From assembly GCA_947628755.1 (NCBI GenBank), contig CANRBC010000017.1, forward strand, positions 1 through 64,000: a stretch of DNA of 64,000 nucleotides. Direction: 5' to 3'. The position numbers and the translations under genes were made by a program. How positions within the stretch are numbered: the first letter of the stretch is position 1; each line of letters begins with the position of its first letter. Origin of the DNA: an uncultured Clostridia bacterium. Lineage in GTDB: Bacteria; Bacillota; Clostridia; Lachnospirales; CAG-274. The notes below the pieces were generated by a model, which had not been told where the DNA came from, made no database searches, and saw nothing but the letters and a program-made list of their open reading frames with translations. Shown here in pieces: positions 1,681-62,420 of this stretch.

Positions 1681-2436
1681 CTATTTTCCTCCTATGTGAT
1701 TTATCATGCTTGCCATATAGCCTGCGCCGAAGCCGTTGTCTATGTTTACAACACTTACTCCGCTTGCGCAGGAATTGAGCATTGACAAAAGGGCGGAAAG
1801 TCCGCCGAATGAAGCGCCGTAACCGACGCTTGTAGGTACTGCTATAACAGGACAGTCCGCAAGTCCTCCCACAACGCTTGCCAAAGCGCCCTCCATACCT
1901 GCTATTGCTATTATGACCCTTGCTTTCATAATATCCTCGGAATGAGCAAGAAGCCTGTGTATTCCCGCAACGCCTACATCATAAAGACGTCTGACATTGT
2001 TGCCAAGAGCTTCACAGGTAATGGCAGCCTCTTCCGCAACGGGCATATCGCTTGTGCCTCCCGTTACCACAAGAACAGTGCCCTCCGTATCGGGCTTGGG
2101 TATTTCTCCTACTATGCCGATATTTCCCATTCCATAGTATTTCATTTCCATAATTTCTTTGATACGGTCTGCTTTTTCTTTTGACAGTCTTGTTATAAGT
2201 ATAGTTTTCTGTCCTTTTTCTCTAAGCGCCTGCGCAATTTTGACTATCTGCTCCCATGTCTTGCCTGCGCCGTATATGACCTCCGATACGCCTTGTCTTA
2301 TACCTCTGTGATGGTCCAGACTGGCAAAACCCAACTCTTGAAAAGGCTCTAGCTTAAGCTGAAGCTCCGCCTCAGAGGGCGTCATGCTTCCCTCGGCAAC
2401 AAGGTTAAGTATTTTTCTTATTTCCGCTCTATCCAT
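1681..2436 (-). CDS. larB: LarB, P2CMN synthase (NaAD carboxylase/hydrolase)
   Basis: LarB carboxylates nicotinic acid adenine dinucleotide and releases AMP, giving pyridinium-3,5-biscarboxylic acid mononucleotide, the first step of nickel-pincer cofactor synthesis. The 251-aa protein has the usual length. The C-terminal half is the AIR-carboxylase-like (PurE-like) domain, seen in VVTGGTSDMPVAEEA, IAIAGMEGALASVVGGL and AVPTSVGYGAS. Its 5' end overlaps larE by 8 bases, indicating coupled translation. Confidence 0.93.
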   Translation of the reverse strand: MDRAEIRKILNLVAEGSMTPSEAELQLKLEPFQELGFASLDHHRGIRQGVSEVIYGAGKTWEQIVKIAQALREKGQKTILITRLSKEKADRIKEIMEMKYYGMGNIGIVGEIPKPDTEGTVLVVTGGTSDMPVAEEAAITCEALGNNVRRLYDVGVAGIHRLLAHSEDIMKARVIIAIAGMEGALASVVGGLADCPVIAVPTSVGYGASFGGLSALLSMLNSCASGVSVVNIDNGFGAGYMASMINHIGGK

Positions 2437-3184
2437 TACTTTTCCTGCCCTTCATATCCAAAGTTATATACTCAAAATAAGGAGAAAGCTCCCCTACTAT
2501 TTCATCTCTTGCTTTAAAAGCCTTTTCAATATCTCTGTCGGTAAACTCCAGTCTTGCAGAGTCGTTATACATTCTCACTCTGAAATCGTCAAAGCCCAGT
2601 TTGAAAAGCACCATTTCGGAGTTTTCTATTCTTTTCAGCTTATCCGCCGTTATTTCATTTCCCATATTTATTCTGGTGGCAAGGCATGAGTATGCCGCCT
2701 TATTCCACGTAAAAAGTCCTGCCTCTTCCGATAGCTTGCGTATATCGGCTTTTGTAAGCCCACATTCTTTAAGAGGGGATATTACATTCAGCTCTCCAAG
2801 AGCTCTCATGCCAGGTCTGTCGCCTGCGTCGTCAGAAGCATTTGTACCGTCAATTATTGTGGTATAGCCATCCTCTGCGGCTCTTTGGCATATTGCGGAG
2901 AAAATTCTTCTTTTACAATAATAGCATCTGTCGGCAGGATTTTGGGTTATATTGCTGTCACTAAGTATATCGTATTCTATAACAGTGACTTCTGCGCCTA
3001 TATTCCTTGCGATTCTCATTGCATCATTATACTCAAACTCCGGCTGAAACTGTGTCCTGACATAATACGCCCTTATATCGACATTGTATTTCACAGCGGC
3101 ATACAGCAAATAAGAAGAATCTACGCCGCCTGAAAATCCCAGAGCTATTTTGTTGTTCTTATTAAAAAAATACTCAAGTTTCAT
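2429..3184 (-). CDS. larE: LarE, ATP-dependent sulfur transferase
   Basis: LarE adenylates the carboxylates of P2CMN and replaces them by thiocarboxylates. The PP-loop SGGVDSS is at residues 18-24. Cys87 and Cys90 (RCYYCKR) and Cys167 (YSCLATR) give three cysteines, the pattern of LarE forms that bind a [4Fe-4S] cluster rather than sacrificing one cysteine; this assignment is inference. The frame is open to 3238, but the ATG at 3184 follows GGAGGG and lies beyond the hairpin at 3201-3226, so I place the start there (251 aa). First gene of the lar set. Confidence 0.92.
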   Translation of the reverse strand: MKLEYFFNKNNKIALGFSGGVDSSYLLYAAVKYNVDIRAYYVRTQFQPEFEYNDAMRIARNIGAEVTVIEYDILSDSNITQNPADRCYYCKRRIFSAICQRAAEDGYTTIIDGTNASDDAGDRPGMRALGELNVISPLKECGLTKADIRKLSEEAGLFTWNKAAYSCLATRINMGNEITADKLKRIENSEMVLFKLGFDDFRVRMYNDSARLEFTDRDIEKAFKARDEIVGELSPYFEYITLDMKGRKSNG

Positions 3185-3200
3185 ATTCCCTCCACTACAT

Positions 3201-3230
3201 AAAAGGCGGTGTATGAACCGCCTTTTATCT
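3201..3230 (-). terminator. attenuator/terminator between membrane genes and larE
   Basis: A perfect 10-bp stem, AAAAGGCGGT with ACCGCCTTTT around a 6-base loop, overlaps the stop codon of the upstream membrane gene and ends only about 16 bases before the larE start. No promoter fits between, so larEBC expression probably depends on read-through. Confidence 0.65.
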
Positions 3231-3536
3231 TTTAGCAAGTCTTTTTCTCACAACGCCCTGTGGGTCTTTTACAAACAGTACTACAAGCCATATAACAAGA
3301 CCAAGGGCAACTACCGACAAGCCTAAGTATGTATCGTTGAGCATTTCTGCCGCCGACGGTCGGAAATAGTCAGCCTTAAGCTCGGCATATTCAAATACGG
3401 CGTCTACAAACCACATAAGGGAAGCGCCCCAGTACATAAGCGAAAGTACGCCTAATTTTTTACTGTCGTCAAGACCTGTAAAATACCATACCGCCGTAGA
3501 AATTACCGCTGCAAATACAGTAATAAGCAGCGTCAT
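3225..3536 (-). CDS. small membrane protein, unknown function
   Basis: I do not recognise a named family. The 103-aa protein has an N-terminal hydrophobic segment (residues 2-20), a second near 27-48 and a third near 72-90, then a basic tail ending in RKRLAKR, so it is probably a three-helix inner-membrane protein with a cytoplasmic C-terminus. It directly follows another membrane protein gene (stop and start adjoin at 3536), and the pair stands upstream of larE. A role in nickel or lactate handling is only suggested by position. Confidence 0.7.
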   Translation of the reverse strand: MTLLITVFAAVISTAVWYFTGLDDSKKLGVLSLMYWGASLMWFVDAVFEYAELKADYFRPSAAEMLNDTYLGLSVVALGLVIWLVVLFVKDPQGVVRKRLAKR

Positions 3537-3904
3537 TATGCTTCCTCCTCAGCCTTTACAGTCTTTTTCTCAATAGACATGGATACGGCAACGGCGCACG
3601 CCCATACTCCTGTTACAAGCACTGCCATAGCGCTGCCTGCTGTTGCCATTTCGTGAAGCATTTCCGCTCTTGCCTCCGGAGCTACTGCATTTGTAAGAAA
3701 TGGAAACCACGGAACTATCTCGCCGTGCCATACGTGTTCAAATGCCAGAAGAGCAGAACCGCCCCAAAGCATATTGTTGAGCCACTTTAATTTTTCTGAA
3801 AACCTTGTTTTCACCTCAACGCTGTCCTTTTCCTTTTTTTCAATAACCTTTTCTGCAACAGTTGTTACGACTGCTTCAACTGCCGGTACTACAAAACATG
3901 CCAT
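3536..3904 (-). CDS. membrane-associated protein, unknown function
   Basis: The 122-aa product starts MACFVVPAVEAVVTTV, then has a charged segment (KVIEKKEKDSVEVKTR), a hydrophobic helix near 40-60 and another near 90-112. I chose the ATG at 3904 because it follows AAGGAGGAAATATTT; the frame is open 14 codons further upstream without a comparable site. The gene is translationally linked to the next small membrane gene. Function unknown; it looks like one half of a two-protein membrane complex. Confidence 0.7.
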   Translation of the reverse strand: MACFVVPAVEAVVTTVAEKVIEKKEKDSVEVKTRFSEKLKWLNNMLWGGSALLAFEHVWHGEIVPWFPFLTNAVAPEARAEMLHEMATAGSAMAVLVTGVWACAVAVSMSIEKKTVKAEEEA

Positions 3905-4032
3905 AAATATTTCCTCCTTTTTTATATTAATTATATTTAATTGCAATTCTTAATTAATTATAACAATTTTTGCAATTTTTGTAAAGCCGCGTTATTCGGC
4001 TGCCTGCTGCCTACGGCTGTTTTATTTAAAAC

Positions 4033-4107
4033 AAAGTAAAATCGGAGATATAAGCCATAATTTCAGAAATGGGAGGAAAATTATTGAAATATCTCCGCTT
4101 TTACTTT
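4033..4107. repeat. 19-bp inverted repeat, one mismatch, 37-nt loop
   Basis: AAAGTAAAATCGGAGATAT (4033-4051) pairs with ATATCTCCGCTTTTACTTT (4089-4107) with a single mismatch. The loop carries GGGAGGAAAA. It could be a cruciform, a small MITE or a structured RNA. Confidence 0.7.
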
Positions 4108-4265
4108 ATGTAATTAAAGTGTAAGGCTTGAAGTTTACTTTAAGTCAATAGTTTTATTTGATTTTTTTATTAAATTTTTATTAAGACTAAATATAGGTTG
4201 CAACACATTTGCAAATTGTTTTAACGGTTTTTGTCCCAAATAACTAAATATTTTACTTTTTTAAG

Positions 4266-4294
4266 TAGACAAACTTAATAAAATATGGTAATAT
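4266..4294 (+). promoter_or_regulatory. sigma-A promoter of the lrp-like/degV operon
   Basis: TAGACA (4266-4271) and TAATAT (4289-4294) are separated by 17 bases, about 58 bases before the start codon. Confidence 0.6.
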
Positions 4295-4351
4295 ATATTA
4301 AGGCTTAAATTTTTAAATTATTTTTCATTATTATAAAGAAAGGGGTAAAAC

Positions 4352-4792
4352 ATGGATAGTATAGATATTAAAATATTGGATATGCTTCAAAAAAATGCAA
4401 GAACGCCTCTTAAGGCAATAGCTGAAAATGTATTTTTATCCTCCCCTGCCGTTTCCACAAGGATAGAGCATCTTGAAAAACAGGGTATCATAAAGGCATA
4501 TACCTCTATTGTGAATAAGGAAAAATTAGGTTATCATATTACTGCATTTATAAATCTTGAAATGGAGCCTACTCAGAAAAAGGAATTTTATCCCTTTGTA
4601 TCGGCTATTCCAAACGTATTGGAATGTAACTGTGTTACGGGAGAGTACAGTATGCTTCTTAAGGTAGCCTTCAAAAGCACCGTAGAGCTGGATTCCTTTA
4701 TAGGCAAGCTCCAGAAATTCGGAAAGACAAGCACTCAAATCGTTTTCTCAACGCCTGTTGAGCCAAGAGGAATCAATATAACCGAGGAGTAA
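4352..4792 (+). CDS. Lrp/AsnC family transcriptional regulator
   Basis: The 146-aa protein has the family length. Residues 1-50 form the winged helix-turn-helix (DIKILDMLQKNARTPLKAIA, then SSPAVSTRIEHLEKQGII), and residues 60-140 form the RAM effector-binding domain with VLECNCVTGEYSMLLKVAF. It is preceded by AAAGGGG. The stop codon is 4 bases before degV, so the two are co-transcribed. Effector and targets cannot be read from sequence. Confidence 0.92.
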   Translation: MDSIDIKILDMLQKNARTPLKAIAENVFLSSPAVSTRIEHLEKQGIIKAYTSIVNKEKLGYHITAFINLEMEPTQKKEFYPFVSAIPNVLECNCVTGEYSMLLKVAFKSTVELDSFIGKLQKFGKTSTQIVFSTPVEPRGINITEE

Positions 4793-4796
4793 ATTT

Positions 4797-5645
4797 ATGT
4801 CCGTTAAAATAATTACAGACAGCTCGGCAGATATTTCCCCCGAGCTTGCAGAGAAATACGGTATTACAATAATACCTCTGTATATTTCATTTGACAACGA
4901 AAAATATTATAAGGAAAATATTGAGCTTTCACCGGAGGAATTCTATAATAAGCTCTGCGAGCCTGACGTCTCCCCAAAGACCTCCTGCCCTCCCATGGCA
5001 GATTATATTTCAGTCTTTGAGAAAGAGCTTAAAAATAATAACGATATTATATACGTTAGCATTTCCTCTAAGCTGAGCACCTGTTATCAATGCGCCGTTA
5101 CCGCGGCAGACATACTTAGTGACAGCTATGATAACAATATTCTTGTAATAGATTCCATAGGCGCCACAGGCTCTCAGGCATTGCTTATACTGGAAATAGT
5201 CAAAATGCTTGAGGATAATTTATCCCTTGAGGATATTGACAAAAAGGCTGACGAGCTTAAACGCACAAGCGGAGTATTTTTCACTCTTGATGACCTTTCC
5301 TTTTTGCAGAAGGGAGGACGCATAGGCAAAGCCGCTGCCCTTCTCGGTACTATTCTCAATATAAAGCCTATACTCCGTGTGGAAAACGGAGAGGTTGTTC
5401 CCGTCGGAAAAATACGAGGCAGAAAAAAAGCTGTGGAAGAGGTGTTGAAACAATTCAACAGCACTGTTGAGGACAAGTCCTTATACAGTATATGCGCTCT
5501 TAAGTTCAAGCAAAGCGAAAGCGCAGAAAATTTTGCCGAGCTTCTGGACTGCGACAATGTTATAAATCTCTATCTGGGAGCTGCAATAGGCTGTCATACA
5601 GGTCCTACACCCGTAGGTATCGCTTATATTAAAAAATACAGATAA
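4797..5645 (+). CDS. DegV family fatty-acid-binding protein
   Basis: DegV (FakB-like) proteins bind one fatty acid, and some present it to the kinase FakA for phosphorylation. The 282-aa protein has the N-terminal ITDSSADI motif, the SPKTSCPP segment, VIDSIGAT and the C-terminal HTGPTPVGIAY motif, in the family order and length. Its ribosome site (GAGGAG) overlaps the end of the lrp-like gene. No FakA gene is in the window, so the partner is elsewhere. Confidence 0.93.
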   Translation: MSVKIITDSSADISPELAEKYGITIIPLYISFDNEKYYKENIELSPEEFYNKLCEPDVSPKTSCPPMADYISVFEKELKNNNDIIYVSISSKLSTCYQCAVTAADILSDSYDNNILVIDSIGATGSQALLILEIVKMLEDNLSLEDIDKKADELKRTSGVFFTLDDLSFLQKGGRIGKAAALLGTILNIKPILRVENGEVVPVGKIRGRKKAVEEVLKQFNSTVEDKSLYSICALKFKQSESAENFAELLDCDNVINLYLGAAIGCHTGPTPVGIAYIKKYR

Positions 5646-10687: not shown

Positions 10688-11608
10688 ATGGATTTAAAGG
10701 AATTTGAATACGTTTTGGCAATAAACGAGGAAAAGAGCTTTTCAAAGGCTGCAAAGAAGCTCTTTATATCCCAACCCTCCTTGAGCCAATATATAAACAG
10801 GCTTGAAAGTCAGATGGGCATAACCATATTCGACAGAAACACTATACCCCTTTCTCTTACATACGCAGGAGAGCTTTATATAAAATCCATCAAGGATATT
10901 ATAAACATTATTGAAAATCTCCACAAGGAATTTGACGATATTTCCAGCTTGAAAAAGGGACGCCTGAATATAGGTCTTACACCATCAAAGGCAAACAATC
11001 CTCTTCCTGCCATTTTGCCCGTATTCAGAAAGGAATATCCCGGCATAGAGCTTGAAATAACCGAGGAAAATTCCTCTGTGCTGGAGGATATGCTTTTGAG
11101 AGGACAGGTGGATTTGTGTATGATGAATCTGCCTATCAAAAGCAAGGGCATCGAATACGAGGCTATAATAAAGGAAAATCTTTATCTTGCAGCTCCTCCG
11201 GACTTTGAGCCGAAGCATACAACAAAAAATGATACGCCCTATCCCCAGATAGATATAAGAGACCTTAGCGACGAGCAGTTTATTTTCCTGCATCCCAGTC
11301 AGAGGCTCAGACAAATTGCCGACGCAATATTTGCAAAGGCAAATATAAAGCCTCACGTACTTCTGGAGACATCCGGCATAGAAACAGCCTTAAGGCTTTC
11401 CGCCGCAGGCATGGGATTTTGTCTTGTACCGGAGTTTTCGGTTAAGTATGCAGGACTTACAAAGCAGCCTAAATACTACTCTCTCAGCTCTGATTTAAAC
11501 TGGACTCTTGTAATAGCTTACAGAGAAAACGCATACAGGACGAAAGCCGCTGCCGCCTTTGCGGAAACAGTCAAAAAGGTAGTATGCTCACAGGAGGTCG
11601 AACAATGA
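10688..11608 (+). CDS. LysR family transcriptional regulator
   Basis: The 306-aa protein has the winged HTH at residues 1-60 (KSFSKAAKKLFISQPSLSQY) and a substrate-binding domain from about 90. RBS AAGGAGG precedes the ATG. It is transcribed away from the decarboxylase operon, the typical place for its regulator. Its stop overlaps the exonuclease start in ATGA. Confidence 0.92.
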   Translation: MDLKEFEYVLAINEEKSFSKAAKKLFISQPSLSQYINRLESQMGITIFDRNTIPLSLTYAGELYIKSIKDIINIIENLHKEFDDISSLKKGRLNIGLTPSKANNPLPAILPVFRKEYPGIELEITEENSSVLEDMLLRGQVDLCMMNLPIKSKGIEYEAIIKENLYLAAPPDFEPKHTTKNDTPYPQIDIRDLSDEQFIFLHPSQRLRQIADAIFAKANIKPHVLLETSGIETALRLSAAGMGFCLVPEFSVKYAGLTKQPKYYSLSSDLNWTLVIAYRENAYRTKAAAAFAETVKKVVCSQEVEQ

Positions 11609-37095: not shown

Positions 37096-38574
37096 TTATA
37101 TATCGTCCTCGTCAATATATATATCATTTATATGCTTATTAGTTGAATCTTCAGTATTTGGTTCTGGTATACTATCCTCCTGCTGTTCTATCATTTCCAT
37201 TATATAATCCACATCATCAACAAAACTGAGCTGACTATATGCAACTTCCTTTGGAATGCCGGCAGATATTAACGTCTGTACCGTCTGCGCTTCCGTTAAT
37301 GTATCAAGAGGGAAGTTTCTTGTAAACTCCATTGTTATCTGTAACGGGTCTACATATATTTCTTTTTTACTCCAGGCAGAACACAACACCTTCCACATAT
37401 ATTGTGCTGCGTCCATCATTTTAGCCTCAAACATACCGCATTTTGTTTCAAGCCCATGCAATTTAAATTTAAGACTTACGCCGCTTGCACTTCCAAAGCT
37501 CTCATCGTTAAGATTTGGGGTTTTGGAAAATCTATAAATATTATCCTGTAACCTTTCAAGGTGATGTTCTGTAAAGCCGTCATTTATGTTTTTCGTTAAG
37601 AAATACACATCGGCGTCCTTAGTACCCGTTGAGGGTATTCTTATCGCTCCGTTATTCTGTGCTTTACGAATTTCGTCATCATCAACAGACACATTTTTGA
37701 ACACCATATATGCGTGGACAAAGCTCTCAATCTCATTGCTGTTATCTGATACTACTTTGTCATAATCGTCAATAAGAGTAAGAACCTTTTCAGCATCTCC
37801 CATAAGCTCCTTGTTATTGGCTATACCCTGTAAGGGGCAATAGTCAAATAAGTGTTCTTGCTTTTTTGTATAACTTAAACTTCCTTTGTAGCCCTCATAG
37901 TAATACACATATTTATCATCATAAAAGTCTACAAGCAGCTTTGAGACTTGCTTATCGGGTGATATTTTATGGACTCTGACGGCATATTTCGGCTCGCTTA
38001 TGTCCGTATTTGATAATATTATTGTTTCATATCCCGGCACTGCCATAACTCTTATGTCGCCGTCTATATCAATATAAAAAAGCCTGCCTGCATATCCGTA
38101 TATGCTTGCAAACTTAGTTATCTCCATATCAACACCGTACATATTGTTGCGTGTTACAAAGTCAGTAACCGCCTTTGTTGCTTTGTCAACTGCTTCCTCG
38201 CCGCCTGTTACCGCTTCCGCTTCAATTCCCTTACTATAGCCATAGCTTATAGGCTCACCTGCAAAATATCCTGTTTTAAAGTCAATGATTTCAGAAAAAA
38301 AGTCATTATTTATCAAGTTGTTTATAGGTAAACTATTGGCAAATATAGGCTCTCTTTTAAAAATAGGTACTTCCTCGGCTACTGTCCTGTATCTGTCATA
38401 TAGCTTTATATTATATGCCGCATTATAACTGTGTTTATTGATTATTTTTTGTAACAAATCAGTCGGTATTCCGGTATCTGATATGCTATCCTCTATTTTT
38501 TTTATTTCATCTGTAAAGTCAGGATACATCTGCAAGTAATTTCTGTTGATAGCATTTTCCCTGTATTTTTGCAC
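37096..38574 (-). CDS. portal protein (SPP1 gp6 family)
   Basis: The 492-aa protein forms the DNA channel of the head vertex. Marks are LINNDFFSEIIDFKTGYFAG, DDYDKVVSDNSNEIESFVHA, LNDESFGSASGVSLKFKLHG and PLQITMEFTRNFPLDTLTEA. The start is GTG after GGAGGTGATAAT. It directly follows the terminase gene. Confidence 0.93.
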   Translation of the reverse strand: MQKYRENAINRNYLQMYPDFTDEIKKIEDSISDTGIPTDLLQKIINKHSYNAAYNIKLYDRYRTVAEEVPIFKREPIFANSLPINNLINNDFFSEIIDFKTGYFAGEPISYGYSKGIEAEAVTGGEEAVDKATKAVTDFVTRNNMYGVDMEITKFASIYGYAGRLFYIDIDGDIRVMAVPGYETIILSNTDISEPKYAVRVHKISPDKQVSKLLVDFYDDKYVYYYEGYKGSLSYTKKQEHLFDYCPLQGIANNKELMGDAEKVLTLIDDYDKVVSDNSNEIESFVHAYMVFKNVSVDDDEIRKAQNNGAIRIPSTGTKDADVYFLTKNINDGFTEHHLERLQDNIYRFSKTPNLNDESFGSASGVSLKFKLHGLETKCGMFEAKMMDAAQYMWKVLCSAWSKKEIYVDPLQITMEFTRNFPLDTLTEAQTVQTLISAGIPKEVAYSQLSFVDDVDYIMEMIEQQEDSIPEPNTEDSTNKHINDIYIDEDDI

Positions 38575-38588
38575 ATTATCACCTCCAT

Positions 38589-39815
38589 TTATAGTCTCTT
38601 AGCGGCCATTATTTTGACTTCCATCTGCAGCTGTTCTGTTGCATAACGCAGCGCATCAATTAAATGGTTATTTTCATCTGCCGCCTTTGCCATAGCATTG
38701 CCGTATTTATCCTCCTGCCAATGGTACTGTTCTATTTCATTTTTAAAGTTTTGGCATTCTGTATGTATTATTATCTCATAGCCCTGTAGCCACCTTATGC
38801 CCCTATTTATGCTGTCCGCACCCTTTACAGCGGGAATAGCATTTACGTTATGCAAGGCAAGATAATCTATTGTCTTTGGGTCTGCACTGTCACAAGTTAC
38901 ATAGCTCTGACCAAACATTTCCTTTGATACTCTTACAAGCTCATCATCTGTCATTCCTGCCTGATACCATTCATCAAATACATATATCCTCTTTTGTTTT
39001 TTATCTATATGTATTTTTATAAGAGCGTTCGGGTCGGAGGAATATCCAAAGTCCATACCACAGTAAATATTGTCAAAGCTCGGTATCATTTCGGACAGAT
39101 TTTCAACCTTCCAGTTTTTAAATATGATATGTCCCAAAGCTCCCCAGTTACCAAGTGAATATACATTGTAATAATATGGGTCTGTTTCATTTTCCAATCT
39201 GTACTTGTCCTCATCGGTCAACATATCATTGTCTTTGTATGTTGTTTTGAGTATGCATAGGTCTCTGTCTTCATAGCTGTCTTTATTATCTTCCCATTTG
39301 CCGAAAAACCTCTTGTATATCCAATGACTTTTTAATATAGGGTTAAAAGCCATTACAATATACTTATTATTTGCAGATATACCTCTTAATCTTTTTGTAA
39401 GCTGCATATAGGCATCCTCTTTTATTTCGGTTGCCTCTTCAACAAATATCCTTTCCAATACGCCCTTTGCAGGCGTTATTGATTTTACCTTTTCCACATC
39501 ATCAAGCCCTGTAAAAAGTATCTGACAGCCGTTTAAAAGGCAGGTTATCACCATATCGGACTTATTTATTTTAAAATAATTATTCAATCCCATTTCATAT
39601 ATGGTCTTCACGACCTGATTATATACGCTGTTTCTCATTGTCTTTGCTACATTCCGACAACACATCCAATTCACGCCTTGTATACAATCAAGCACTATCT
39701 TTTGACAAATAAAAAAGCTCTTTCCTGATGCCGAGCCTCCGAAAAATATTTGTGTCTGTTGACTTTTATTCAGATATGGGATATATGTCTTGTTGATTGC
39801 TACATTTATATTCAT
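38589..39815 (-). CDS. terL: terminase large subunit
   Basis: The 408-aa DNA packaging motor has Walker A GGSASGKS (residues 26-33), Walker B ILERIFVEEATE, MAFNPILKSHWIYKRF and the nuclease domain with GMDFGYSSDPNALI. PBSX-type family. It follows the yhhQ gene by 3 bases. Confidence 0.94.
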   Translation of the reverse strand: MNINVAINKTYIPYLNKSQQTQIFFGGSASGKSFFICQKIVLDCIQGVNWMCCRNVAKTMRNSVYNQVVKTIYEMGLNNYFKINKSDMVITCLLNGCQILFTGLDDVEKVKSITPAKGVLERIFVEEATEIKEDAYMQLTKRLRGISANNKYIVMAFNPILKSHWIYKRFFGKWEDNKDSYEDRDLCILKTTYKDNDMLTDEDKYRLENETDPYYYNVYSLGNWGALGHIIFKNWKVENLSEMIPSFDNIYCGMDFGYSSDPNALIKIHIDKKQKRIYVFDEWYQAGMTDDELVRVSKEMFGQSYVTCDSADPKTIDYLALHNVNAIPAVKGADSINRGIRWLQGYEIIIHTECQNFKNEIEQYHWQEDKYGNAMAKAADENNHLIDALRYATEQLQMEVKIMAAKRL

Positions 39816-39818
39816 ATT

Positions 39819-40448
39819 TTATAACCTTATCATTGATTGCTTAATATGCTTAATAGCCGATTTTGTTATCGGATAAAACAGTACCTCATACAGTACCTCA
39901 AAAAGAGTACCACCTATTACCATTGATATTAATGCCGATAACGGCATAACAAATAAAAACGCTATAAATGCAAATATAGCATTATCTAAAAACTGACCAA
40001 ATATTGTTGATATAATAGCCCGTGCAAACAATGACTTATTATATCTGCGTTTCATTGTAACCATTATTTTACTGTTTACAAGACTTCCTGCTATGTATGC
40101 TATAAAACTTGCAGCCGATATCCTTGCCGTAGTGCCCAGTATAACCTGAAAAGCCCGCTGATTGCCATATACTTTGGATGCAGGAAGGATAATAGCAATT
40201 TGGAATAAGACCACTCCTATTAGATTCATAGCAAACGATAATAATACCATTCTTTTGGTCTGATTATATCCGAATACTTCGCTTGAAATATCCTGCGCTA
40301 TGAATAATAATGGACTAACTAATATTCCCGTTGTTACTGTAAATGCAAATACATCAATACTTTTTGTTGCAAGTATGTTTTGTATTATTAGCCCGGCACA
40401 ATATATGCCGAATAATGCAGCAGTTATTTTTTCTTCATTTTTATTCAT
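39819..40448 (-). CDS. yhhQ: YhhQ/VUT family queuosine-precursor transporter
   Basis: The 209-aa membrane protein has about six helices and the family signature QDISSEVFGYNQTKRMVL (residues 52-69). Bacterial YhhQ imports preQ0/preQ1-type 7-deazaguanines. In a phage, next to a transglycosylase-like gene, it probably supplies the base for DNA modification. It is 1 base from dpdA and 3 from terL. Confidence 0.85.
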   Translation of the reverse strand: MNKNEEKITAALFGIYCAGLIIQNILATKSIDVFAFTVTTGILVSPLLFIAQDISSEVFGYNQTKRMVLLSFAMNLIGVVLFQIAIILPASKVYGNQRAFQVILGTTARISAASFIAYIAGSLVNSKIMVTMKRRYNKSLFARAIISTIFGQFLDNAIFAFIAFLFVMPLSALISMVIGGTLFEVLYEVLFYPITKSAIKHIKQSMIRL

Positions 40449-40449
40449 T

Positions 40450-41193
40450 TTACCACCCCTTTAAATCCATATATCTCTGATATTTGACCCATTCGCTGAA
40501 ATTATGTGCAATCAGTTTATATAAATCGGTCTTTTTATTCCCCTTTTCCAAAGGTCTTTGTATTATCCTTTTACCATTGAAAAATTGTAATTGTTGCCCT
40601 CTGACAGCACTCATTACCCAACTTGCACTATCTACGCTATAGAATTTATAGTCATTGAGTTCACTTGTTTTTGTAAAGCCTAAACCGTGTACTTTTACAC
40701 CTTTTTTATAAGCATAATCAACCATTTTTTTGATTAAGTTATACTCTTGCTTTTTAACGTGAAATACAAGACCGCCAATCGCTACATACTTGTAACATTC
40801 ACACATTTTTTTGAAATAGTCTACTCCTCTGCCTTTATGCCATACCGGAATACACTTCCTATTTGTACCATTTTCAAGTCTTTTTCTAAGCTCCTCAACA
40901 TACTCTATGCCGTATATAGTATCAACATCAAGCTCAAAAAAGTATTTTATATTGTACTTGTTTATAAATGCAATATATCTGTCAAGATAGCTATTTAACA
41001 TTTCTTTTGTACATTCTTGACCGTTCATATAACTAAACGCTCCGCTATCGAGTAGAAAATTATCCACTCCTACAGAATTTAAAGCCTGTAAGCAACTATC
41101 CTCTCCACTAAAGAATGTTTCAAGGCAATATTTTAATTTACTTTTATCAAGGTTCTTATCTCGTGAAGTCGTTGCGGCAAGATATACTCTCAT
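40450..41193 (-). CDS. dpdA: DpdA-like DNA-guanine transglycosylase
   Basis: The 247-aa protein belongs to the phage TGT-like group. TIM-barrel motifs seen are LLDSGAFSYMNG (residues 48-59), FELDVD (86-91), AIGGLVFHV (138-146), VHGLGFTKTSEL (168-179) and FYSVDSASWVMS (184-195). DpdA enzymes exchange guanine in DNA for a 7-deazaguanine, which blocks many restriction enzymes. Start and the parB stop overlap in ATGA. Which base is used cannot be read from sequence. Confidence 0.8.
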   Translation of the reverse strand: MRVYLAATTSRDKNLDKSKLKYCLETFFSGEDSCLQALNSVGVDNFLLDSGAFSYMNGQECTKEMLNSYLDRYIAFINKYNIKYFFELDVDTIYGIEYVEELRKRLENGTNRKCIPVWHKGRGVDYFKKMCECYKYVAIGGLVFHVKKQEYNLIKKMVDYAYKKGVKVHGLGFTKTSELNDYKFYSVDSASWVMSAVRGQQLQFFNGKRIIQRPLEKGNKKTDLYKLIAHNFSEWVKYQRYMDLKGW

Positions 41194-41681
41194 ATTTCAA
41201 ATTCCTTCCCACAATGCGGACAGGTCACCGTCTTTCCTTCCTTTGAACGTGTGATTTCGGTGTCCTGTAAAAAATCATCATCATTAACATCTAAAGATAT
41301 ATCAAGCGCAGCAAATCCAAAGTCCGACATATCAACGTCCAGTTCTGACAATTCCTTTAATTCTGCGTTTAATTTATCAAAATCCCAGCCGCTGAATTCT
41401 GCTACTTTATTATCTGCAAGCCTAAACGCCTTAATTTGGCTTTCTGTAAGGTCATCAGCTACTATACAAGGTACTTCATCAAGTTTCAACTGTTTAACTG
41501 CTTCAAGTCTTGTATGCCCAGCTACAATTACATTATCTTTATCAATTATAATCGGAATTTTAAAGCCAAACTTACTTATACTCTTAGCAACCTCGTTTAC
41601 TCCGACAGCTATATTCCTTGGATTATTTTCATAGGGTATCAGCTCATCAGGATTTTTATAAATGATTTTTAATTTGCTCAT
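41190..41681 (-). CDS. ParB-like domain protein with C-terminal zinc finger
   Basis: The 163-aa protein has a ParB/Srx fold: LIPYENNPRNIAVGVNEVAK, FKIPIIIDKDNVIVAGHTRL and LDEVPCIVADDLTESQI. The C-terminus adds CPHCGKEF (Cys154, Cys157). Such ParB units accompany phage DNA-modification genes. It starts 1 base before the terS stop and couples to dpdA. Confidence 0.82.
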   Translation of the reverse strand: MSKLKIIYKNPDELIPYENNPRNIAVGVNEVAKSISKFGFKIPIIIDKDNVIVAGHTRLEAVKQLKLDEVPCIVADDLTESQIKAFRLADNKVAEFSGWDFDKLNAELKELSELDVDMSDFGFAALDISLDVNDDDFLQDTEITRSKEGKTVTCPHCGKEFEI

Positions 41682-41682
41682 G

Positions 41683-42168
41683 CTACTCCTCCATTTCTTT
41701 TTTCGCTTCGTTTATGATTATGTTTATTTGCGTATTGTCTTCACTATTAGTTGTTTCAATAGGTTTGTCACGCCATTTTTTGTATCGGCGGTTCTTTAGC
41801 CAAAATATTTGAGCTGTTGTATCGGGAGGTATGTAAACATCTTCTTGCGCATATACAATATGTTCTTTTTCTGCTATCCTTTTGCCTTCTAAATTATACT
41901 TGACTTCCTTAAGTTTAAACGGTTTTTTTACTTTAACCGTATGCCCTAGGGCTTTTTTTAGCAGTGCATTTTCGACCTGATTATCAACTACATCTTTGCC
42001 TTTTTTTAGGGCCTCCGAAATCTCCGAAAATTTCTTTTTCCAGTCATATAGCGTAGAAACAGATATAGCCATTTTCTTTGCTATTTCCTCATCAGTAAGA
42101 CCATCTCTCGCCCAGCCTATTAATAATATTAAATTTTCAGGCTTCCGCCATTTATCATATTTTGCCAC
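41683..42168 (-). CDS. terS: terminase small subunit
   Basis: The protein (161 aa) starts at GTG 42168, 5 bases after AGGTGG; the frame is open to 42252 but that part runs through a terminator hairpin. The N-terminal HTH reads LTDEEIAKKMAISVSTLYDW, followed by the family region DVYIPPDTTAQIFWLKNRRY. It recognises packaging sites. Three genes separate it from terL. Confidence 0.87.
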   Translation of the reverse strand: MAKYDKWRKPENLILLIGWARDGLTDEEIAKKMAISVSTLYDWKKKFSEISEALKKGKDVVDNQVENALLKKALGHTVKVKKPFKLKEVKYNLEGKRIAEKEHIVYAQEDVYIPPDTTAQIFWLKNRRYKKWRDKPIETTNSEDNTQINIIINEAKKEMEE

Positions 42169-42192
42169 AACACCACCTACTATATTTACAAT

Positions 42193-42216
42193 AAAAAAGT
42201 GCCCGAAGGCACTCTT
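42193..42216 (-). terminator. UUCG-loop terminator before terS
   Basis: AGTGCC-CGAA-GGCACT on the plus strand; on the minus strand the loop is TTCG and TTTTTTATT follows. It separates early from late transcripts and lies downstream of the late promoter candidate. Confidence 0.85.
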
Positions 42217-42306
42217 TTGATTAATATGGAAGACCATACATAATATGGACAATATATAAGAGGAATTTATACCACTTGCATAGGACTTTTATAATCCTAC
42301 AATTAC

Positions 42307-44540: not shown

Positions 44541-45005
44541 TTATTCCTCCTTATGTAAATATCTAACCCACCTTTTTTTGTACTCAAGTGGCACTCCGTT
44601 ATTCTTTCTTCGGCTGCCGCTCCATATTTTACCTCCTGCCTTGCCCTCACAAACAAATCCGCTTGCTTTAACGCTTGCTCCACTTTCGCTTTCCAAAGTG
44701 TATGTAACAACCTTCTTATAACCCATTTCTTTTGCAATACGACAGCAAGCACCATACAATTTACTACAAGCATTATATGTACCATCTGTGCATAAACGGT
44801 TAATTTCTAGTGTAAGTCCGTTATCTAAATATCTACTAACAGGGCGCCCGCAAATAGCGCAACCAACCATTATATCGTCTGCGAATAAGCCTATAGCGAA
44901 TTTACAGCCTACAGTACCATTGTGATGTCTGTGGTTGTCCGCAACATATTCATTTGCTACCTTTAATGTTATGGGCTTTATGCTTAAACATTTATTATCC
45001 ATCAT
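44541..45005 (-). CDS. XF1762 family protein
   Basis: The 154-aa protein matches the phage XF1762 family: ANEYVADNHRHHNGTVGCKF, MVGCAICGRPVSRYLDNGLT and LEINRLCTDGTYNACSKLYG; the end is acetyltransferase-like (KKVVTYTLESESGASVKASG). Often found with radical SAM genes in Firmicute phages, as here with an ATGA overlap. Activity unknown. Confidence 0.82.
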   Translation of the reverse strand: MMDNKCLSIKPITLKVANEYVADNHRHHNGTVGCKFAIGLFADDIMVGCAICGRPVSRYLDNGLTLEINRLCTDGTYNACSKLYGACCRIAKEMGYKKVVTYTLESESGASVKASGFVCEGKAGGKIWSGSRRKNNGVPLEYKKRWVRYLHKEE

Positions 45006-45694
45006 TCCATCTCTTTCCTCAAACTGTCTTTGATGTAATATACAACATCAAGAGATTTACAAAGTTCCTCCGCCTTGCGACCGAAATCTCCCCAGTTAAT
45101 ATCAGACGGAAAATAGTTTAATTTTCCTATTTTGATTTTATCAACATAGGAAGATAAATTCACTATTGCATATAACACCCTTTTACAATCCAAGACAGGT
45201 TCAAATGAAATCCAAGTTTTTATTCCTCTCATATGGGCGACTTTAAGAGTTTCGATATTACAACAAGAAAAATAATTATCATTAACCATTTCGTTGCCGT
45301 CATATGTGATACCGTACCAATCATTTTCGTCAAGCAAATCAAAGTCCCTGTTGCCGTCCCCTTTTGTGAGTATCTGAACATTGTTTCCGCTTTCTTTGAT
45401 TAGTTTGATGATTTCCCTTGTCGGTGTTGTATCAAATCCTGTAGGGTATGGGTCGCAGGTAAAGCATAAGTGTATCGTTTTGCCTTTAATTTTGCCTTTT
45501 GCGAGCTGCTTTTTGACCGCTTCAACTATGCCATCTCTCGGCTCTACGCAAGAGTGGAATATTTCTTTATCTTTGCGTAAAACCAAAGGCGCATAACAGT
45601 AATAGCACCTGTGTGGGCAGCCCGTATATATATTTACGGCGTAATCGCCGTATTCTGCCGCCTTACCTTTCGGCTTATATATCGGATTAATCAT
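45002..45694 (-). CDS. radical SAM protein (SplB-like)
   Basis: The 230-aa protein carries the cluster motif CPHRCYYC (residues 26-33) with NIYTGCPHRCYYCYAPLVLR, then LCFTCDPYPTGFDTTPTREI and TWISFEPVLD, like spore-photoproduct-lyase-type proteins. It is not QueE-like. DNA repair or modification is possible. Overlaps both neighbours. Confidence 0.82.
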   Translation of the reverse strand: MINPIYKPKGKAAEYGDYAVNIYTGCPHRCYYCYAPLVLRKDKEIFHSCVEPRDGIVEAVKKQLAKGKIKGKTIHLCFTCDPYPTGFDTTPTREIIKLIKESGNNVQILTKGDGNRDFDLLDENDWYGITYDGNEMVNDNYFSCCNIETLKVAHMRGIKTWISFEPVLDCKRVLYAIVNLSSYVDKIKIGKLNYFPSDINWGDFGRKAEELCKSLDVVYYIKDSLRKEME

Positions 45695-60463: not shown

Positions 60464-61090
60464 ATGGACGATTTTGCTAATAGATTGAGAAAAGCTTTGT
60501 ACATAAAGGGCATAAATCAAACTGAATTATCTAATATAACAAAAATACCCAAATCCGCAATTAGTCAATATCTAGCTGGAAATTTCAAGGCAAAAAGAGA
60601 TAGAGTAAAAATATTAGCAACCGCTTTAGATGTTAGTGAAACTTGGCTAATAGGATATGATGTGCCTATGGAAAGAGGTAATGGCACTGACAAGCCTGTT
60701 GAAAAAACTAAACTCATTCCTGTTGTTGGTACGGTAGCTTGTGGCAATCCCATATATGCCTACGAAAACATACAAGAATATATAACAGTAGCAGAAAATG
60801 ATAGTGTTGACTTTGCCCTTTATGCCAAAGGCGACAGTATGAACAACTGTAAAATTGATAATGGAGATATAGTTTTTATAAGAAAACAACCCCTTGTGAA
60901 TAATGGGGAAATTGCTCTTGTTCTTATTGATAATGAAGCAACTGTCAAAAGGTTCTACGACTATGGCGATAAAATAGTTCTTCGCCCCGACAGTACTAAC
61001 CCGGAGCATGAGGAACAAGTCTATGAAAAAAGGGATCATAACATATTGATACAAGGAAAAGTTATTTTTATTAAAACATATATACAATAG
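60464..61090 (+). CDS. CI-like repressor with S24 peptidase domain
   Basis: The 208-aa repressor has an HTH at residues 5-60 (GINQTELSNITKIPKSAISQ), the self-cleavage site Cys93-Gly94 (VGTVACGNPI), catalytic Ser125 (AKGDSMNN) and Lys162 (ATVKRF). RecA-driven cleavage would induce the phage. RBS AGGAGGTG. Divergent from the cro-like gene. Confidence 0.95.
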   Translation: MDDFANRLRKALYIKGINQTELSNITKIPKSAISQYLAGNFKAKRDRVKILATALDVSETWLIGYDVPMERGNGTDKPVEKTKLIPVVGTVACGNPIYAYENIQEYITVAENDSVDFALYAKGDSMNNCKIDNGDIVFIRKQPLVNNGEIALVLIDNEATVKRFYDYGDKIVLRPDSTNPEHEEQVYEKRDHNILIQGKVIFIKTYIQ

Positions 61091-61103: not shown

Positions 61104-62420
61104 ATGGGATTTCTTGATTTTTTTAAGGTTAATCAATTTAAGCAAAAAGTAGCCGAACAAGAGAATAAAATAGAAGAACTTGAAGCCCTGCTTACTCCTG
61201 AACTTAGGGATGTAATCAAAGCTAAAGAATTGCTTAAAAATTATCAAGATCAACAAACAAACGTTGAAAATGAAATAGAAAATTTAAATTCAAAAATATC
61301 GAATTTAAACAGTCAAATAATTGAATTAAACAATACAATAGAACAAAAGAAAAATGAAATTGTAATATTAGATGATGAAATATTATATCAACAATTAGAT
61401 TTATATAAGCCCATGTATGCTTTTGCCAATTCAGACGAATATAAGGATAATCTCGAATATATAAGGCAAAAACAAAAAGATATGATAAAGGCTGAAACTG
61501 CTGCCACTTGTAATACGACTTGGACTGTTGGAGATAGTGCCGCAAAGGGCAAAAAAATGGTCAAAGACAATATAAAACAAATTGTAAGGGCATTTAATAA
61601 CGAATGCGAAATGCTTATTGATAAAGTTAAATATAATAATATTGAATCTGTCGAAAAAAGAATTACAAAAGCATTTGAGGCATTAAATAAACTAAATGCT
61701 AGTTTGGGTATAGAACTAAACCCTGAGTACTTGAATCTAAAATTAGATGAATTGCACTTAGGATATGAATACGCTGTCAAAAAACAAGATGAAAAAGAAG
61801 CTGAAAAAGAACGGCGTGCAGAAATGAGAGAAGCTGCAAAGCTTGAGCGAGAATTAGCTGAAGAACGTAAAAAAATAGAAAAAGAACAAAAGCATTACAA
61901 ACAAGCATTAAATACATTACTTACTCAGTTGAAAAATGCAGATGATAATGAAAAATCCGAACTTGAAGCAAAAAAAGCAGAATTGCTTGATCATTTAGCT
62001 GATATAGATAAAAATATCGAAAATCTTGATTATAGAGAAAGTAATCAAAAAGCCGGATATGTATATGTCATATCTAATATAGGTGCATTTGGTGAAAATG
62101 TCTATAAAATAGGTATGACAAGAAGGCTGGATCCTATGGATCGAGTAGATGAATTAGGTGATGCATCCGTACCATTTAATTTTGATGTTCATGCAATGAT
62201 ATTTGCGGATGATGCCCCTGCCCTTGAAGCGGCTTTACATAGAGCATTTGAAAATAAAAAGCTCAATATGATTAATACAAGACGTGAATTTTTCAACGTT
62301 TCTTTGGATGAAATTGAGGAGGTTGTAAAAGCGAATTTTGATAAAACAGTTGAATTTATTAAAACTCCGCCTGCCGAACAGTATAGAGAAAGTATAAAAA
62401 TAAAAGAAAACATAAAATAA
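61104..62420 (+). CDS. DUF4041 coiled-coil protein with GIY-YIG (T5orf172-type) domain
   Basis: The 438-aa protein has long coiled coils (residues 15-95 and 225-310), a DUF4041 region between them and a C-terminal GIY-YIG-type domain: GYVYVISNIGAFGENVYKIG, MTRRLDPMDRVDELGDASVP, EAALHRAFENKKLNM. It is co-oriented with the repressor (14 bases apart), so it is made in the lysogen; defence against other phages is a reasonable guess, not proven. Confidence 0.82.
   Translation: MGFLDFFKVNQFKQKVAEQENKIEELEALLTPELRDVIKAKELLKNYQDQQTNVENEIENLNSKISNLNSQIIELNNTIEQKKNEIVILDDEILYQQLDLYKPMYAFANSDEYKDNLEYIRQKQKDMIKAETAATCNTTWTVGDSAAKGKKMVKDNIKQIVRAFNNECEMLIDKVKYNNIESVEKRITKAFEALNKLNASLGIELNPEYLNLKLDELHLGYEYAVKKQDEKEAEKERRAEMREAAKLERELAEERKKIEKEQKHYKQALNTLLTQLKNADDNEKSELEAKKAELLDHLADIDKNIENLDYRESNQKAGYVYVISNIGAFGENVYKIGMTRRLDPMDRVDELGDASVPFNFDVHAMIFADDAPALEAALHRAFENKKLNMINTRREFFNVSLDEIEEVVKANFDKTVEFIKTPPAEQYRESIKIKENIK

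Follow-up and report, generated by a model that had tools for sequence, protein, structure and literature searches.

A three-gene cassette between the terminase genes of a clostridial prophage is likely to be a phage DNA-modification module, whose outcome would be 7-deazaguanine-modified phage DNA, most likely carrying the deoxynucleoside forms of preQ0 or preQ1 (dPreQ0 or dPreQ1). The cassette encodes a ParB-fold protein, a DpdA-like protein resembling tRNA-guanine transglycosylase (TGT) and a YhhQ-type transporter, and it lies on the minus strand of a 64,000-nucleotide (nt) stretch from an uncultured Clostridia bacterium (assembly GCA_947628755.1, contig CANRBC010000017.1, positions 1 to 64,000; the whole stretch is hereafter the window). 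Gene order, folds, conserved residues, the linkage of ParB to DpdA and the supply genes of the host are the observations on which this reading is built. The same reading had been put forward in an original prediction made from the letters of the DNA; the TGT fold, the Asp residues, YhhQ and the host supply now speak for it, with DNA (as against tRNA) as the substrate and the identity of the base as its conditional parts.

A transglycosylase-type enzyme and a precursor transporter

The genes follow one another in the order terS, parB, dpdA-like gene, yhhQ and terL, with the portal gene next; parB and the dpdA-like gene overlap by 4 bases and the remaining gaps measure 1, 1 and 3 bases, in agreement with the claim that three tightly coupled genes separate the terminase subunits. 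The range first given for the cassette, 38589-42168, contains it and also takes in terL and most of terS, the three genes proper occupying 39819-41681. The motifs on which the prediction drew (LLDSGAFSY, FELDVD, YSVDSASW, DISSEVFGY and CPHC) were all found as quoted.

The dpdA-like gene (40450-41193, minus strand), predicted to encode a DNA-guanine transglycosylase of 247 amino acids (aa), gave no Pfam family match, and its product is by profile a member of phrog_887 (1.4e-49), labelled queuine tRNA-ribosyltransferase in PHROGs. With an AlphaFold2 (AF2) model of the protein (mean pLDDT 91), the top matches in fold searches were solely tRNA-guanine transglycosylases (Foldseek E 1.9e-7; VIA Z 16.5), at root-mean-square deviations of 3.5-3.8 over 233-239 aligned residues, i.e. 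across the whole protein, and on this model we are confident in assigning it the TGT fold. Enzymes of the TGT family require Asp at two positions, one for base binding and one for nucleophilic attack. An alignment of 31 diverse relatives revealed D49, E87, D89, H119, H169 and D188 to be invariant, and a profile search of PDB sequences aligned the LLDSGAF and KVHGLGF...SVDS block, at weak overall significance, with 7ui4, a solved structure of a DNA-guanine transglycosylase. In this mapping, which was made by sequence profile and not by structure superposition, the base-recognition-type D49 (LLDSGAF; codon 41047-41049, minus strand) aligned with an Asp of 7ui4 and the nucleophile-type D188 (YSVDSA; codon 40630-40632, minus strand) with its SIDST motif, which argues that both required Asp residues are present. 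The original prediction had been made to depend on the catalytic Asp not being lost, and both residues proved to be retained in 31 of 31 sequences. H169, a candidate for the published His196, also aligned with a His of 7ui4; DpdA2 is distinguished by its lack of the His conserved in DpdA. An hhalign comparison of the DpdA alignment with the host TGT, tried as a residue map, gave a partial and unconvincing match and was set aside; residues were therefore mapped on the basis of 7ui4 and the fold.

The third gene, yhhQ (39819-40448, minus strand; PF02592, 2e-38), is the sole PF02592 gene in the whole genome, and its annotation as a queuosine-precursor transporter of the YhhQ type held, as it exceeds the TIGR00697 equivalog cut-off (108.5 versus 50.95 bits). 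Since it falls under the cut-off of PRK11212, the E. coli-type YhhQ equivalog for preQ0/preQ1 transporters (55.9 versus 252 bits), its substrate could be preQ0, preQ1 or another precursor. As had been stated, no preQ0 synthesis gene was detected within the 64-kb window, and neither was a DpdC (DUF6884) match; a weak QueC-like match at 2429-3238 was rejected because it resembles a different type of PP-loop ATPase. The proposal that precursor is obtainable from the host fits the host genome, in which we found one TGT gene and a complete queD-queE-folE-queC-queF operon, so that, judging by gene content, the host should make both preQ0 and preQ1. Neither the que operon stretch nor the window contained a preQ1 riboswitch or other Rfam match. 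Among 12 genomes with YhhQ-only cassettes, in assemblies that are possibly incomplete, a strong QueC match was present in 5 and absent from 7, while TGT was present in all 12; YhhQ may free the phage from dependence on host synthesis.

The ParB-DpdA pair and the other partners of ParB

We assembled 98 DpdA loci from IMG/VR, genomes and phage records, reduced to 77 representatives below 85% identity, a sample that seeded searches bias toward relatives of the query. In 63 of the 68 representatives that could be tested, the gene immediately upstream of dpdA encodes ParB, compared to 11 non-adjacent ParB matches among 1957 open reading frames (ORFs), which argues that the arrangement is not due to chance; the 4-base overlap of the two genes recurs in 34 of 65 loci. 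Where enough downstream sequence was available (60 representatives), the full queC-queD-queE-folE set, with que families assigned by NCBIfam, was found in 28 and YhhQ in 27, including 19 with YhhQ and no que gene at all and 6 with QueC and YhhQ. Terminase or portal genes lie at most 6 kb away in 51 of 60 loci. On the basis of these counts, the ParB-DpdA pair is the core of the cassette, the supply genes alternate and the site is the packaging region. The survey placed such cassettes in genomes of Clostridia, other Firmicutes, Collinsella, Synergistaceae and Methanobrevibacter.

Several of these loci differ in their supply genes or their setting. QueC and YhhQ occur together without QueD or QueE in L013, L035, L044, L160, L163 and L174, which leaves two readings: import by YhhQ of a compound that precedes preQ0 in the pathway, or another job for QueC. 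A gene with the dpdC-type domain DUF6884 stands between dpdA, which it directly follows, and the supply genes in L058 (7378-9687, plus strand) and also in L161, L170 and L178, and phages with such cassettes may carry 2′-deoxy-7-amido-7-deazaguanosine (dADG). ParB-DpdA-YhhQ cassettes in two genomes labelled Methanobrevibacter (L179 and L180) suggest that the module may reach archaeal viruses.

The ParB-like protein of the cassette (41190-41681, minus strand; 163 aa; phrog_620, 2.8e-56) contains NPR, GHTR and ADNK motifs, an acidic linker and, at the C terminus, CPHC. Its AF2 model (pLDDT 85) adopts the ParB-CTPase fold over residues 3-134, with a Z of 14.4 to 6sdk_A and 7bnr_A, which are ParB proteins bound to CDP and CTPγS. 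At the position of the GERR-type nucleotide motif it carries GHTR and others carry GNMR, G55 being invariant and R58 nearly so, with the Glu replaced. The zinc finger attributed to this protein was confirmed in part: the CPHC motif is present (residues 154-157; 41211-41222, minus strand) but constitutes a single C-terminal pair, half a zinc ribbon, and a complete zinc site would require a second Cys pair supplied by dimerization or by a partner. After the acidic linker, the tails of DpdA-linked ParBs carry either CPxC or an alternative 'EYTxxD...KLLxL', and a CxxC end was recorded in 57 of 57 Mom-linked and 44 of 85 DpdA-linked ParBs, counts that are biased because the search was partly seeded with this motif.

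Relatives of this ParB adjoin other DNA modifiers near terminase genes. Besides DpdA, Pfam assignments for 30 representative partners or fusions included Mom (14), N6/N4 methylases (6), TAGT (3), D12 (2) and a C5 methylase (1), with phiEf11 (ParB-Mom) and Mcat8 (ParB-C5 methylase) as named cases. The ORF at 3995-5074 (plus strand) of locus L137 is a natural ParB-Mom fusion whose junction lies directly after CPHCGKEF, and ParB-methylase fusions occur too. The slot between the terminase genes is swappable: a phage with a TerL 76% identical to that of the prophage has ParB-D12 in the equivalent slot, and another, with a TerL 82% identical, has no modification gene there. In a tree of the ParB core, which is built on few columns and has many open forks, parsimony assigns 15 partner changes to the DpdA-linked ParBs, of which well-supported branches force only 2; its label 'MTase-fused' was given by ORF length alone and wrongly takes in the ParB of Rinkes and the L137 fusion. 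Repeated partner swapping around ParB is thus likely, if not proven. We found no paper describing this partner series (Mom, TAGT and methylases at the terminase), most subscription journals lying outside the search; the CmoX paper mentions ParB neighbours for a different phage modifier and states that what they do is unknown (PMC12783734).

Taken with its conservation next to DpdA, this pattern suggests ParB to be an accessory subunit common to several phage DNA modifiers, with a mode of action that we infer. The suggestion that it chooses sites or couples modification to packaging is strengthened as far as a role for ParB is concerned, and leaves both specifics as putative functions. We raise only tentatively the wider idea that ParB, often with a CPxC tail, acts as an interchangeable, nucleotide-driven subunit of general use that loads DpdA, Mom, TAGT and methylases or selects their sites and couples all of them to packaging, and consider it possible but on balance doubtful. 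Two other neighbourhoods were seen in the survey: a radical SAM gene directly after ParB in L081, and in phiFN37 (L058) two more ParB-like genes (2631-4419 and 10781-11269, plus strand), one of them right after a PAPS-reductase-like gene.

Known systems and alternative explanations

The closest published arrangement is that of the cluster B mycobacteriophages (Rosebush, CRB2), in which a ParB-like ORF1, a DpdA-like ORF2, queC, queD and queE lie beside terminase genes (PMC6392294); Rosebush DNA contains 96,530 dPreQ0 per million nt (PMC6884629). These phages differ in having synthesis genes where the cassette has yhhQ, in the length of ParB (434 aa in the related Rinkes record versus 163 aa), in a terS that follows the que genes instead of preceding parB, and in a remote DpdA (about 26-30% identity over part of the protein). 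The cassette is therefore less novel in arrangement than had been implied, a variant close to the published mycobacteriophage ParB-DpdA-que locus, and YhhQ was already known in some DpdA phages (PMC6884629). Fusobacterium phage phiFN37 shares the ParB-DpdA-YhhQ order (DpdA identity 36%), but its cassette does not lie between terS and terL and has DUF6884, a dpdC-type domain (PMC11888242), between dpdA and yhhQ, for which reason dADG would be expected there. Bacterial Dpd systems likewise combine a TGT-type DpdA with a ParB-superfamily partner, the ATPase DpdB (PMC12839542). However, DpdB carries a DndB domain (PMC11888242), for which the ParB-like protein gave no Pfam match at E 1, and this protein is at most an analogue of DpdB; the bacterial DpdA model spans 406 positions compared to 247 aa here, and DpdC, which is optional in some validated bacterial dpd islands (PMC11888242), is absent from the window. 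Queuovirinae (9g, CAjan) also encode a phage DpdA, accompanied in CAjan by a putative preQ0 transporter. Finally, Streptococcus Javan phages, phiEf11 and Moraxella Mcat8 have the same ParB family near packaging genes with the modifier next to it or fused, whereas their chemistry is methyl transfer or that of Mom and not base exchange.

Part of the evidence weighs against a 7-deazaguanine module. The TGT-like protein scores 33.1 bits against the bacterial DpdA equivalog NF041059 (cut-off 200), as a relative and not a member, and its model covers most of TGT yet is some 120 residues shorter, so that its substrate may differ. Among DpdA-only phages, Orion, which has no que genes, has unmodified DNA and Salmonella 7-11 has traces of modification (PMC6884629); hence modified DNA cannot be assumed from the presence of DpdA by itself. 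In 9g and CAjan, moreover, dpdA neighbours genes for DNA polymerase and clamp proteins, and the stretches read contain no ParB; plasmid DNA in E. coli is modified by the 9g enzymes in the absence of ParB (PMC6884629), so that phage DpdA does not in general require ParB.

The example of Orion and Salmonella 7-11, together with the hosts of YhhQ-only cassettes (7 of 12 without a strong QueC match, all with TGT), would also suit a DNA-directed enzyme that in this host leaves the prophage DNA unmodified or nearly so, in a cassette that pays off only in hosts or settings where YhhQ finds free precursor. Because the host has the whole preQ0/preQ1 operon and precursor is expected even without import, we judge this quite unlikely here. 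An enzyme acting on tRNA, which with YhhQ would boost queuosine or a relative during infection as a translation helper, would account for the TGT fold, the PHROGs family name and the service of YhhQ to tRNA queuosine in bacteria (PMC11888242, citing Zallot 2017). We regard it as very improbable, given that the host already has its own TGT, that about 120 residues of TGT are missing, that the profile aligns with the DNA-guanine transglycosylase 7ui4 and that the ParB partner is elsewhere linked to DNA modifiers. A further alternative concerns ParB and is compatible with our interpretation of dpdA and yhhQ: parB could be a separate partition or regulatory gene that shares the operon and has no role in modification. 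In its favour, phages often encode ParB homologues (496 records), and some of the ParB proteins compared were collected for their resemblance to the one in the cassette. This alternative is nonetheless unlikely in view of the 63 of 68 adjacencies against the background of 11 matches, the pairing of the same family with Mom, TAGT and several methylases, and the ParB-Mom and ParB-methylase fusions.

Genomic setting and proposed pathway

The flanking packaging genes, all on the minus strand, are terS (41683-42252; terminase small subunit, phrog_309, E 1.6e-53), which is listed with a TTG start and likely has an internal start near 42170, terL (38589-39815; terminase large subunit, PF04466, 5.4e-48; TIGR01547) and the portal gene (37096-38574; PF05133, 1.2e-82). 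We take the element to be a prophage, since genes for head, tail and replication functions and for a CI-like repressor lie elsewhere in the window, one end of which holds bacterial metabolic genes. Upstream of terS, a radical SAM gene (45002-45694, minus strand) overlaps by 4 bases an XF1762-family gene (44541-45005, minus strand) that also scores above the Pfam Mom cut-off (28.2 versus 27.1 bits), and the two (44541-45694) are a possible second DNA-modification pair. Outside the packaging operon, a gene for a DUF4041/T5orf172 protein (61104-62420, plus strand) adjoins the CI-like repressor gene (60464-61090).

For the 7-deazaguanine module that we favour, we infer a DNA substrate, the base, how ParB contributes, when modification takes place and its protective effect as follows. 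The module would be expressed together with the packaging genes, and YhhQ would import a 7-deazaguanine base (preQ0 or preQ1), topping up the output of the host operon. The DpdA-like enzyme would then remove guanine from DNA and insert this base by TGT chemistry, with D188 as the nucleophile and D49 in base binding. The ParB-like accessory subunit would bind nucleotide, and probably DNA, and would recruit or license the enzyme on the phage genome shortly before this is packaged, a step for which gene position and partner swapping are the grounds. Since no DpdC-like gene is present, the product would be dPreQ0 or dPreQ1. The module finds support in relatives, where the same ParB-DpdA pair precedes the queC-queD-queE-folE genes that make preQ0. 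Virion DNA carrying the modified base would be protected against restriction on entry into the next host.

Most of what is known of 7-deazaguanine in phage DNA comes from phages that synthesize the base themselves, and here an importer would replace synthesis in a temperate phage of a gut-type bacterium. ParB-like neighbours of phage modification enzymes were previously without an assigned role (PMC12783734), and the swapping of partners around one ParB family, together with a natural ParB-Mom fusion, makes the role of ParB directly testable.

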